Shown piece by piece: positions 1,989 to 63,347 of a stretch of 64,000 bases of DNA (the first letter of the stretch is position 1; each line of letters begins with the position of its first letter). A program made the position numbers and the translations under genes. The stretch spans positions 116,894 through 180,893 of the forward strand of contig JAJPIC010000004.1 in assembly GCA_021324915.1 (NCBI GenBank), given 5' to 3'. The notes beneath the pieces were generated by a model. It was not told the origin of the DNA and ran no database searches. It saw only the letters and a list, made by a program, of their open reading frames with translations. Source of the DNA: Beijerinckiaceae bacterium (GTDB lineage: Bacteria; Pseudomonadota; Alphaproteobacteria; Rhizobiales; Beijerinckiaceae).

Positions 1989-3416
1989 ATGAATGAACTG
2001 ATGCCCCAGGAAATCACGCGCGGCGCGTCTCCCGAGTCCTTCGATATTGCGAGATTGCTCAAGGCGCGCGAGGCCGAACGCTACGACCTCCACAGCCGCT
2101 ATTTGAACGATCGGATGGTGCAGGCCTTGCGCACCATCGGCTTCGATGTCGCCTTCCAGCGTGGCAGCGGCCAATATTTGTTCGATCGGGCAGGCTCACG
2201 CTATCTCGATCTCTTGAGCGGCTGGGGCGTGTTCGCGGTCGGGCGAAATCATCCGACCATTCGCCTGGCGCTGCAGCGCGTTCTCGAAGCCGATCTGCCG
2301 AACCTCGTTCAGATGGATGTCACGGCGCTTTCCGGCGTGCTCGCCGAGCGATTGCTGGAGTTCGTCCCTTATCTCGACAAAGCCTTCTTCGCCAATTCCG
2401 GTACGGAAGCGGTCGAAGCTGCGATCAAATTCGCCCGCGGTTTTACGGGCCGGCAAAACATCGTCTATTGCAGCCATGCTTTTCACGGCTTGAGCTACGG
2501 TGCGTTGTCGTTGAATGGCGATCCGACCTTTCGCGACGGGTTCGGCGATTTCTTGCCCGGCTGTTTCGAGGTTCCTTTCAATGATCTCGCGGCGCTCGAA
2601 CAGGTGCTGTCGCGTCGCGAAGTCGCGGCATTCATCATCGAGCCGATCCAGGGCAAGGGGGTCAATGTCGCGGACGAGGGCTATATCAGGGGCGCCCGCG
2701 AGCTCTGCAGCAGATATGGCACCTTGTTTGTCGCCGATGAGATCCAGACGGGGCTTGGCCGCACCGGCCGCTTCCTTGCGATCGAGCACTGGGATGTGGA
2801 GCCGGACATGGTTCTGCTCGCCAAGGCGCTCTCCGGCGGTCATGTGCCGATCGGCGCCGTGCTGATGCGCAAGAAGATTTTCGAGGCGATCTTCAATCGC
2901 ATGGACCGCATGGCTGTGCACGGCTCGACGTTCGCGAAGAACGATCTGGCGATGGCGGCGGGGCTCGCGACGCTCGAGGTGATCAAAGCCGAAAGGCTCG
3001 TCGAAAACGCAGCGCGGAAAGGCCAGCGGCTGTTCGATTTCTTCAGCGCTTTCGCCGAGCGTTACGAACTCGTCAAAACTGTGCGCGGCAAGGGATTGAT
3101 GATCGGTCTCGAGTTCGGGCCGCCGCGCTCCTTCAAGTTGAAGACGGCCTGGAGCGTGCTCGAGTCGGTCCGCACCGGTCTCTTCTGCCAGCTCATCGTC
3201 ATTCCGCTGTTCAAGGACCACAAGGTCGTCACGCAAGTGGCAGCCAATGCCAGCCACACGATCAAGCTGCTGCCGGCGCTCACCATCACCGATGCCGATT
3301 GCACCTGGATCGAGCGCGCTTTCGACAGCGTCGTGGCCGAGGCGCATCGCGTCCCCGGCGCTGTCTGGTCGCTCGGCAAGACGCTCGCGGAGAACGTGCT
3401 CAGGAGCAACCGGTAA
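1989..3416 (+). CDS. Class III (acetylornithine-type) PLP aminotransferase; possibly HpnO-like hopanoid aminotransferase
   Basis: FFANSGTEAVEAAIKFAR, YCSHAFHGLSYGALSLNG, LFVADEIQTGLGRTG, LLAKALSGGHVPIGAVL: PLP-dependent class III motifs; HpnO assignment is only suggestive. Confidence 0.85.
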   Translation: MNELMPQEITRGASPESFDIARLLKAREAERYDLHSRYLNDRMVQALRTIGFDVAFQRGSGQYLFDRAGSRYLDLLSGWGVFAVGRNHPTIRLALQRVLEADLPNLVQMDVTALSGVLAERLLEFVPYLDKAFFANSGTEAVEAAIKFARGFTGRQNIVYCSHAFHGLSYGALSLNGDPTFRDGFGDFLPGCFEVPFNDLAALEQVLSRREVAAFIIEPIQGKGVNVADEGYIRGARELCSRYGTLFVADEIQTGLGRTGRFLAIEHWDVEPDMVLLAKALSGGHVPIGAVLMRKKIFEAIFNRMDRMAVHGSTFAKNDLAMAAGLATLEVIKAERLVENAARKGQRLFDFFSAFAERYELVKTVRGKGLMIGLEFGPPRSFKLKTAWSVLESVRTGLFCQLIVIPLFKDHKVVTQVAANASHTIKLLPALTITDADCTWIERAFDSVVAEAHRVPGAVWSLGKTLAENVLRSNR

Positions 3417-3432: not shown

Positions 3433-4908
3433 TCAATATTTCGCTTCGACCGGCGCCGTGGGGCTCCAGTTGAACTTATAGACGAGGCCGGCGACGCCCG
3501 ATTGCATTTCCGGATGGAAATGGATCGTGTTGCCCGGTCCGCCCGCCGAATAAGAGGCGATATCGTGCGCCTCGTATTGGGCGTAGCGATATTCGACATT
3601 CCAGAACCAGCCCGGCGCAAATTGTGCCTCGATCCCATCGCCGAGCAGCCAACCGCTGCTCGTGAAACCTTGCGTAGAGAGACCGGAAGGAATGCCATTG
3701 GCGCTGTTGAGCAGTGCGGTTCCGTCAAAATGGGCCTGGGTGAAGCCGAATTTGCTGTAGCTGAGGATTTGCGGCGTCACCAGGAAGCCAAGGCGCGCGC
3801 CGCCGCCCCATGACCAATGCTGCACAATCGTTCCGGTAAGACCCGCGGTCTGATCCTGGATCGTGCCCGATAGGCCGGCGGGGTCGAAATCGCCGAACGC
3901 GCCGGCGACGATTTTCCCAGTCAATTGATAATCATAGCCAAAGCCGATGCGCCCGCCGACGCCGCGCCCGCCTTGGCGCTGGTCGATACAGGCCACGCAG
4001 ACAAGATCATTGGGCAGCCGGGTGACAGTGTTGGCGCTCCAGACGCCGTAGCCGGCGCCAGCATCTATATAGGCGCCGTTCCAGATCGAAGGCCCCGTTG
4101 CCGGGGTGATCAGATCGCTGAAGAGATTGCCGAAGCCGAGACCGGGGAACGCGGGCGGATTCATGCCCGGCCAGCCGAGCTTATAGACGAGGCTGGTCGT
4201 CACGGTCTGCACAATCGGGCGAAACCGGATGTCGTCGAGGCGCCCGGCCGCGCCGGAATCGGCGAGTGTCTGGGTGCCGTAATCCGCCATCCGATATTCA
4301 CTGCGCCAGAACCAGCCGGGCGCGACCATTGTCTCGAGGCCGCCGCCGACGAACCAGCCATCGGGATTAAAGCTCGCAATCGAATTGCCGCTCTCTGCTC
4401 CGTCCGTCGTCCTCACCAAGTCCGAGCCGGTGAAATGGCTCTGCGTGAACCCGGCATTCGCATAGGCGAGAAGATCGGGCGTGACGAGCATCCCGAGCCG
4501 GACGCCCGCCGCCCAGGACCAGGTTTGCGTGATATTGTTGCCGGTCAAGCCCGCAGCCTGGTCCTGCACGGCGCCGCGCATCCCGGCATAGGTGCCGTCG
4601 GCGAAGACGCCGGCGACGAATCGCTCGGCGAATTGGTAATCGAACCCCGCGCCGGCGCGCCCGAGCAAGCCGCGGCCGCCCTGGATCTGATCGATGCAAA
4701 GCGCGCAATTGGCGCTGCCGGGCAGGCGCGTTGTCGTGTCCGCCGCCCATTCCCCGTAGCCGGCTCCGCCATCGACGTAAAAGCCCGTCCAGGTGAAAGC
4801 CGGCGGCGGTGGAAGGGGCGGCGCTTTCGTCGATGGCAGGTCCGCCGCAAATGCCGGGGTCCCGGCGAAAAAAGCTAAACCAAAACCCAGTCTCAAAACC
4901 CTGCGCAT
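3433..4908 (-). CDS. Outer-membrane beta-barrel protein with two tandem Omp25/Omp31-like barrel halves
   Basis: Signal peptide MRRVLRLGFGLAFFAGTPAFAADLP; internally repeated WTGFYVDGGAGYGEWAADTTTRLP.../WNGAYIDAGAGYGVWSANTVTRLP...; ends in VEAKY with aromatic terminus. Confidence 0.85.
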   Translation of the reverse strand: MRRVLRLGFGLAFFAGTPAFAADLPSTKAPPLPPPPAFTWTGFYVDGGAGYGEWAADTTTRLPGSANCALCIDQIQGGRGLLGRAGAGFDYQFAERFVAGVFADGTYAGMRGAVQDQAAGLTGNNITQTWSWAAGVRLGMLVTPDLLAYANAGFTQSHFTGSDLVRTTDGAESGNSIASFNPDGWFVGGGLETMVAPGWFWRSEYRMADYGTQTLADSGAAGRLDDIRFRPIVQTVTTSLVYKLGWPGMNPPAFPGLGFGNLFSDLITPATGPSIWNGAYIDAGAGYGVWSANTVTRLPNDLVCVACIDQRQGGRGVGGRIGFGYDYQLTGKIVAGAFGDFDPAGLSGTIQDQTAGLTGTIVQHWSWGGGARLGFLVTPQILSYSKFGFTQAHFDGTALLNSANGIPSGLSTQGFTSSGWLLGDGIEAQFAPGWFWNVEYRYAQYEAHDIASYSAGGPGNTIHFHPEMQSGVAGLVYKFNWSPTAPVEAKY

Positions 4909-5335
4909 TATTCCGTGGCCTCCGGTTTCCAGCGCCCGGCGCCCTGTGGGCACATGTGATCCACGATGATCCATGGCCTGGACAGCGCCGCATTCACCGT
5001 ATCATCATATCTCATTCGGCAGCAATGAAGCGTGGCTTTTCCGGCATCATTTGCGAGAGAAATCCGAACCCGCGAAGTGCGGCCCGCGAAAGCCAAAGAA
5101 AGGACCTCCCCCAGGCGCGGTTGAGAGGGAGTTCCCCGCAAGGCAAGCAGAATGCCGTCACCGCGGGCAAGGTCCAACCGGCGCTAAGCCGATCGTGCGT
5201 GCCTATCCGTACCCGAGATGTCACCGTAAGCTCGCCGGACTTTCGTCGCCACGCAATGTTTCCTGCCGATCATCTGCCGGGTAGATTTGCCCCACGCGAG
5301 CCTGACGGAAGGCGCGCAATTAGGAGAGATTTGTC

Positions 5336-6620: not shown

Positions 6621-6652
6621 CGCAAGCCGTCCTCGGTGTCGTAATCGGCAAG

Positions 6653-6808
6653 AGCATCGGACCCAAAAGTGGGAACCGGTTTTGGGAAAAATCCGATGCT
6701 AAGAAGAGCATCGGACCCAAAAGTGGGAACCGGTTTTGGGAAAAATCCGATGCTAAGAAGAGCATCGGACCCAAAAGTGGGAACCGGTTTTGGGAAAAAT
6801 CCGATGCT
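6653..6808. repeat. Three identical tandem copies of a 48-bp palindromic element (period 54 bp)
   Basis: AGCATCGGACCCAAAAGTGGGAACCGGTTTTGGGAAAAATCCGATGCT at 6653, 6707 and 6761, separated by AAGAAG. Confidence 0.97.
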
Positions 6809-37307: not shown

Positions 37308-38234
37308 TTGCCGAATCCGCGCCTGCGGGTTTCTTTAGGCGCGTTCTTATTGGTCGATTACTTCAGTCATTTCGGCATCCCAATGCATTTCGAGCTGCGC
37401 TCCTATTTTCGACTACGCAGAGTGTGCAAGGCGCGCCGAAGCAAGCGACAATTGGGCAGGCGGGCAGCGCGTCGCTTTTTGCCGAGATTTGCGGTGCCCG
37501 CCTTGTTCTTCGCACAATGGGCCCACGCGGCGGACCTGCCGAATTTGAAAGAACCGGGGGCGGAGGCTCCCCCGGCCTTCACATGGACCGGATTCTATAT
37601 CGGCGTAAACGGCGGCTACGGGATCGATCATTACGCCTTCAACCAGAATTATCTCTCGCCGGCGGGATTCGAGCAGTCGTCGAGCGGGATCACGGCTTCC
37701 GGCGTGGTTCTCGGCGGCCAGGCCGGCTATAATTACGAAATCACCGGTCTGCCCCTCATCGACCACGCGGTGGTCGGCATCGAAGTCGATTCGGACTGGA
37801 GCTCGGTCAGGGGCACGACAACCATCGTAACGCCGCTCGCGACTTTGACCTACGGCGGCAAGCTCGAGAATTTCGGCACGCTTCGCGGGCGCATCGGCTA
37901 TAATTTCGACCGCTTGCTCCTTTATCTGACCGGCGGCCTGACCTATGCGACGAGCGAGGCCGATTATACGGTGAACGGCATCTCCGGCTCGTCCACCGTG
38001 ACGCGCACCGGTCTCTTCCCTCGGATCGGCGTCGCAGGCGCCGGAGCCGAATACGCGATCACCGATCATTTCGCGCTTCGCGCAGAATATTTGTACGATT
38101 TCAGCGGCGCGCGTTTCGTCCAATTCTATCCGACGCCGACGAGCCGAATTGGTTTTGGTACGCGCAGCATGTATCACATCGCTCGCATCGGCCTCGATTA
38201 TCGATTCGATTTTTTCGGATCCGGCTCGCAATAA
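37308..38234 (+). CDS. Omp25/Omp31-like outer-membrane beta-barrel protein
   Basis: AADLPNLKEPGAEAPPAFTWTGFYIGVNGGYGIDHYAF... ending ARIGLDYRFDFFGSGSQ; exact start uncertain. Confidence 0.82.
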   Translation: MPNPRLRVSLGAFLLVDYFSHFGIPMHFELRSYFRLRRVCKARRSKRQLGRRAARRFLPRFAVPALFFAQWAHAADLPNLKEPGAEAPPAFTWTGFYIGVNGGYGIDHYAFNQNYLSPAGFEQSSSGITASGVVLGGQAGYNYEITGLPLIDHAVVGIEVDSDWSSVRGTTTIVTPLATLTYGGKLENFGTLRGRIGYNFDRLLLYLTGGLTYATSEADYTVNGISGSSTVTRTGLFPRIGVAGAGAEYAITDHFALRAEYLYDFSGARFVQFYPTPTSRIGFGTRSMYHIARIGLDYRFDFFGSGSQ

Positions 38235-62591: not shown

Positions 62592-63347
62592 TTAGTACTT
62601 CGAGACCACCGGCGCCGGCGGCTCGAACAGATCGAACTTGTAGCTGAAACCGACCTGAACGCGATGATCGGTCTCGTGCCGGGTGGCCGTCGCACCCGGG
62701 GCGAAAGATGCAGTCAGAGGATCGGAGATATGGCCGAAATCGCTATAGCGATATTCGCCGCGCAGTGACCAATTGTTGGTGATCGCATATTCGAGGCCGG
62801 CACCGGCCGTCCAGCCCGTATGCTCGTGCCAGATGCTGTCGACGCCGAGCGGGCTGAAATAGGTATCATGGAAATCGCCGAAGGCGACGCCACCCGTGCC
62901 GTAAATCAGGAGGCGGTCCCACGCATAACCGACACGGCCGCGGATCGAGGCTTCGACGGGTTCGCGATCGGTATAGCCAATGATGCCCGAACCGTTGCCG
63001 CCCGAATAGCTCGATCCGTCGACGTCGCCTTCGAGGCCGAAGACGAACTGGGCGACCTGGAAATTATAGCCGACGTGACCGCCGCCCACGATGCCGCGCG
63101 GACTGCTGCCGGGCAGACTCGTGACGAAAGCGCCGGTCGGATCGAAGACATTCGGCGATTGGCTATGCGCGCTCCACTGATAGCCGACCTGGCCACCGAT
63201 ATAGACGCCACTCCAGGTGAAGGCGGGCGGCGGGGGAGGCGGCGGAGTGAAGACCGGCGGGCCTTTTTGATTTGGCAGATCGGCCGCCAGGGCCGAACCG
63301 CCGGCCAAAGAGACAAGCGCCGTCGTTATCAGAAACCTACGCAACAT
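62592..63347 (-). CDS. Omp25/Omp31-like outer-membrane beta-barrel protein
   Basis: MLRRFLITTALVSLAGGSALAADLPNQKGPPVFTPPPPPPPAFTWSGVYIGGQVGYQWSAHS... ending VGFSYKFDLFEPPAPVVSKY. Confidence 0.9.
   Translation of the reverse strand: MLRRFLITTALVSLAGGSALAADLPNQKGPPVFTPPPPPPPAFTWSGVYIGGQVGYQWSAHSQSPNVFDPTGAFVTSLPGSSPRGIVGGGHVGYNFQVAQFVFGLEGDVDGSSYSGGNGSGIIGYTDREPVEASIRGRVGYAWDRLLIYGTGGVAFGDFHDTYFSPLGVDSIWHEHTGWTAGAGLEYAITNNWSLRGEYRYSDFGHISDPLTASFAPGATATRHETDHRVQVGFSYKFDLFEPPAPVVSKY

Follow-up and report, generated by a model that had tools for sequence, protein, structure and literature searches.

How does an outer-membrane protein fold when one polypeptide carries the sequence of a small β-barrel twice, and what purpose is served by the cysteines that each copy keeps? 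These questions are raised by a gene at positions 3433-4908 on the minus strand of the window (the whole 64,000-nucleotide stretch of Beijerinckiaceae DNA that we analyzed). A first-pass annotation, made from the sequence alone, had read its product as two homologous Omp25/31-like halves in a family of proteins with normally one barrel, each half with a CxxC motif, which it had called unusual for an outer-membrane barrel.

Two homologous barrel domains in one chain

The gene is open for 491 codons plus a stop, and a Shine-Dalgarno-like GGAGG can be read at 4919-4923, 10 bases upstream of the ATG at 4908 (all features of the gene are on the minus strand). Residues 1-21 (MRRVLRLGFGLAFFAGTPAFA; 4846-4908) read as a signal peptide with a putative cleavage site between PAFA and ADLP, and the product is a predicted outer-membrane protein. 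The Pfam match, an alignment of the two halves, and a structural model delimit barrel 1, with eight predicted strands, at residues 40-246 (4171-4791). A domain scan then places a long A/P/G-rich linker of 29 residues, predicted to be periplasmic, at 247-275 (4084-4170). Barrel 2 was located by the Pfam match and the same alignment at residues 276-481 (3466-4083), and the chain ends after its last strand in a tail, SPTAPVEAKY (3436-3465). Related tails of the form ...VVAKY terminate single-barrel relatives.

The two halves, residues 40-246 and 276-481, align from end to end with 105 of 207 positions identical (51%), one gap, and E = 2e-66. The Pfam family OMP_b-brl (PF13505) matches the protein in two stretches (E = 1e-14) with a score of 55.6 bits against a cut-off of 28.7, which places it in this family. 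Hence the Pfam matches, the half-to-half alignment, and the orthologs described below all indicate at least two complete barrel domains in the chain, and the homologous halves proposed by the first-pass annotation are borne out. The protein shares with the Omp25/31-like small barrels of Hyphomicrobiales the WTGFY start, eight predicted strands per half, and a last-strand signature typical of single-barrel proteins, which both halves keep (LVYKLGW and LVYKFNW). It differs from a typical OMP_b-brl protein in having two barrels per chain and a CxxC in loop 1 of each: CALC at residues 68-71 (4696-4707) and CVAC at residues 304-307 (3988-3999), which take the same domain position, 29-32, in the alignment of the halves. 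The remaining two omp genes of the window, at 37308-38234 (+) and 62592-63347 (-), each encode one OMP_b-brl barrel, as had been noted.

The two-barrel protein is maintained within the genus

Of ten further genomes from the genus, three (G003, G005, and G007) encode this two-barrel protein with 57-59% identity. Several of the remaining genomes are incomplete drafts, and the protein is absent from G006, a nearly complete genome. All three orthologs keep both CxxC motifs (in G003 the contig stops within barrel 2, past the second CxxC), and few residues of loop 1 are invariant apart from these cysteines. The dN (0.16-0.33) is well under dS (1.0-1.5), a ratio of about 0.15-0.3 that signifies purifying selection, and the protein is thus maintained. 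Because the first barrels of the orthologs group together, and the second barrels likewise, the duplication is older than these species. We found no close match in other genera of the family among 248 genomes searched; the nearest relatives outside the genus belong to another family of the same order, f26, which by inference is the GTDB family Xanthobacteraceae. The genus may have acquired the gene horizontally. Sequence matches between loci (L113 with L013, from Chelatococcus composti, and L105 with L024, from Rhizobiales bacterium TNE-4) put the window's family among these Hyphomicrobiales, probably as the GTDB family Beijerinckiaceae.

A predicted 8-strand barrel for half 1

Structure prediction, which the first-pass annotation had proposed as a check, worked for a single half. 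The whole chain folded from its single sequence with AlphaFold gave a pLDDT of 30, too low to use. A whole-chain alignment that included single-barrel relatives was discarded, since nearly all of these fell on half 1 and the last strand was misplaced, and for this reason only half 1 was folded. Predicted from a 32-row alignment, half 1 alone is a complete 8-strand barrel (pLDDT 87, pTM 0.82), although that alignment is rich in single-barrel relatives, which biases it toward closed 8-strand barrels, and leaves out the loci from our genome searches, true orthologs included. An antiparallel 8-strand barrel is thus indicated for half 1 by the model and for half 2 by its 51% identity to half 1. In the model, the CxxC lies in the first extracellular loop (25-35), beside a short helical turn. 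The periplasmic turns are tight and shorter than the linkers of tandem proteins, which measure 26-29 residues within the genus and 18-41 in other tandem relatives.

A fold search with the half 1 model returned OmpA, Ail, NspA, OmpX, and OprG among its PDB neighbors, with only moderate TM-scores and with larger barrels among them too. A phmmer search of the whole tandem protein against PDB sequences gave no match. OmpA, NspA, Ail, and OmpX thus share the 8-strand fold predicted for each half, but they are single-barrel proteins and their sequence similarity is very weak.

Paired cysteines favor disulfide-stapled loops

We examined cysteines across the family. A CxxC at the same loop as in the tandem protein is present in three single-barrel proteins (L153, L163, and L199), one of which, L153, is 52% identical to the tandem protein over one barrel and carries a further, distinct pair of cysteines. 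L159, itself a tandem protein, has CX5C and CX7C in loop 1. In a large sister group, one cysteine is in the first strand, at position 4, and the other in the second, at about position 50 (WTGCY...GCDYQ); pairs of other types lie mostly at the extracellular loops of the model. Paired cysteines are common in this family, whether in its loops or in the first hairpin. Among 120 non-redundant barrels, 37 contain cysteines and all counts are even (0, 2, 4, or 6 per barrel), a tally over related and hence non-independent proteins to which no probability should be attached. Even numbers in all barrels are the pattern expected for disulfides and, on sequence grounds, favor bonds within a barrel over a metal site. 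Together with the conserved pair in an extracellular loop, they point to disulfide-stapled loops, and we infer that both CxxC pairs of the tandem protein are oxidized in this way. A literature search returned nothing useful on disulfides or CxxC motifs in Omp25/31 loops. The suggestion that each CxxC could form a disulfide or bind metal consequently survives in its first half, for a conserved, disulfide-capable loop pair, and loses ground in its second, because of the even counts and the variable spacing. Paired cysteines were also seen at domain positions 75-82 in a tandem protein (L187, 1336-2865) and in a paralog from the window's own genome (L002, 1363-2136), where a staple of loop 2 is predicted.

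Tandem barrels recur in the subfamily

Class and family searches uncovered numerous proteins belonging to this barrel subfamily. In ORF and domain scans, chains with two barrels and linkers of 18-41 residues turned up both in f26 and in f92, a family of another order. About a dozen tandem groups stand alongside single-barrel relatives. The tandem proteins of f26 and f92 resemble ours in subfamily, barrel number, and linker, but mostly lack cysteines, or have a β1-β2 pair, or, in L159, the wider loop 1 spacings. The premise that the family normally has one barrel therefore holds for most relatives, with many exceptions. The verdict of unusual stands only in part, since other families of the class have tandem barrels too and cysteine pairs are common. 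A missing second barrel, or a tandem form and CxxC absent from all relatives, had been named as grounds for giving up the reading; instead, the second barrel is there, and relatives carry both features.

Several loci in these searches had other layouts. L192, L197, and L158 have adjacent separate genes of one barrel each, the pairs in L192 and L197 being closely related; such neighbors are possible precursors of fused tandems. In two loci of Xanthobacteraceae (L058, 852-4850; L082, 1-3591), a TonB-dependent receptor, with plug and barrel, is followed in the same chain by two Omp25-like barrels, giving three barrels per protein. In L122 (603-2223, genome G629), a tandem gene with a β1-β2 cysteine pair changes reading frame midway through barrel 1; a frameshift, a pseudogene, or a sequencing error could account for this.

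A proposed fold and origin

We suggest, with a probability of roughly 0.7 for the explanation as a whole, that the protein is a duplicated Omp25-like barrel that forms a separate 8-strand pair with loop disulfides and has a surface or structural role. One whole 8-strand outer-membrane barrel domain would have been duplicated in frame. After Sec-dependent export, the chain would enter the membrane as an adjacent pair of separate 8-strand barrels, which the 29-residue periplasmic linker would join into a covalent barrel dimer. In each barrel, a disulfide within the CxxC would close the first extracellular loop, and the periplasmic Dsb system would introduce this bond either ahead of assembly or while it proceeds; the genome has a gene for DsbB. 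A single-barrel ancestor probably already had the CxxC, which was then copied together with the barrel, because single-barrel relatives have it at the same loop. The protein likely serves as a surface or structural component of the outer membrane, where a fixed pair might present two similar loop faces and not a wide pore; adhesion, packing, and stability are suggested uses for such paired faces.

The same chain could be read as a single 16-strand pore into which the halves merge, the natural counterpart of an engineered OmpX tandem. Each half has eight antiparallel strands and the topology is in phase, and the OmpX experiment of Arnold et al. (2007; cited in PMC6340704), in which the tandem is reported to form a pore, is a precedent. 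Against this, the model of half 1 by itself is a closed barrel, both halves carry a last strand of the single-barrel type, and all tandem relatives have 18-41 residues between the halves in place of a tight turn. We regard the merged pore as unlikely: a pair of adjacent 8-strand barrels is much more probable, because a half closes by itself in the model, the linkers are long, and single-barrel relatives are abundant, and in the full chain the barrels are presumably separate. The cysteines allow another reading, in which both extracellular CxxC motifs form one four-cysteine site for iron or zinc, similar to a rubredoxin or zinc ribbon, or else disulfides between barrels, and the duplication was selected for that site. 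Rubredoxin-like sites generally consist of two CxxC knuckles, and every ortholog retains both motifs. Nevertheless, the two do not always occur together, since L153, L163, and L199 hold one CxxC only; L159 has shifted to spacings of CX5C and CX7C, and the majority of tandem relatives either lack cysteines or carry their pair at another position. We consider such a site very improbable. It is likewise a long shot that the loop motifs, side by side on the surface, jointly form a site for redox chemistry or metal binding and that the subfamily duplicates repeatedly because paired barrels gain joint functions.

The separate-barrel explanation is compatible with two histories. All tandems might descend from one old duplication, with later gene conversion mimicking independence, and similar halves within one protein are also expected from conversion. 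A tree of 91 barrels usually unites the two halves of any one tandem protein, or of one tandem group, in a well supported clade of their own. Forcing the first barrels of the genus, L152, and L159 together was rejected (p-AU 0.001), as was forcing their second barrels together (p-AU 5e-5), although these values are somewhat optimistic, the groups having been chosen after the larger tree was seen. Long branches are present in the tree and are flagged for L186/L188 and L187. Minimum change counting puts the number of switches between single and tandem forms at seven. Within the genus and other tandem groups, first and second barrels fall in separate clades, so conversion is not under way there; conversion in the distant past is the alternative left to repeated duplication. 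The tree tests thus favor repeated independent duplications, and we think a single old duplication rather doubtful.

Relation to known multi-barrel proteins

As PMC11494523 and PMC9603273 relate, Solan et al. (2021, PNAS) described a class of multi-barrel outer-membrane proteins, and our protein shares their defining feature, stated in PMC11494523, of more than one transmembrane barrel domain per chain. In the best described case, GfcD, a 12-strand and a 13-strand barrel, unlike each other, are separated by a periplasmic domain according to the same text, whereas the protein studied here has two like barrels of eight predicted strands, a short linker, and CxxC motifs in the loops. The class being already known, we see modest interest here in the repeated duplications; judged from sequences, the tandem form and the loop CxxC are recurring habits of the family and not a unique invention. 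Larger outer-membrane barrels are thought to derive from 8-strand ancestors (PMC6340704), partly by duplication. A subfamily with single and repeatedly arisen tandem forms is a test bed for whether 8 + 8 strands stay separate or merge to 16, and for which linker length permits either outcome. The even cysteine counts are a simple testable claim about disulfide staples in outer-membrane loops of alphaproteobacteria.

Neighboring features of the window

The convergent neighbor at 1989-3416 (+) encodes a class III aminotransferase, for which the best NCBIfam matches were below cut-off and which we take to resemble HpnO of hopanoid synthesis. An explanation from genome context was dropped, as the aminotransferase is not adjacent to the tandem gene in G005, G007, or G003. 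At 6650-6808, nearly three perfect tandem copies of a palindromic 54-base unit (AGCATCGG...CCGATGCT) are present. Across the genome there are 45 near copies of this unit, which are often grouped in short arrays; it looks like a REP-type element.
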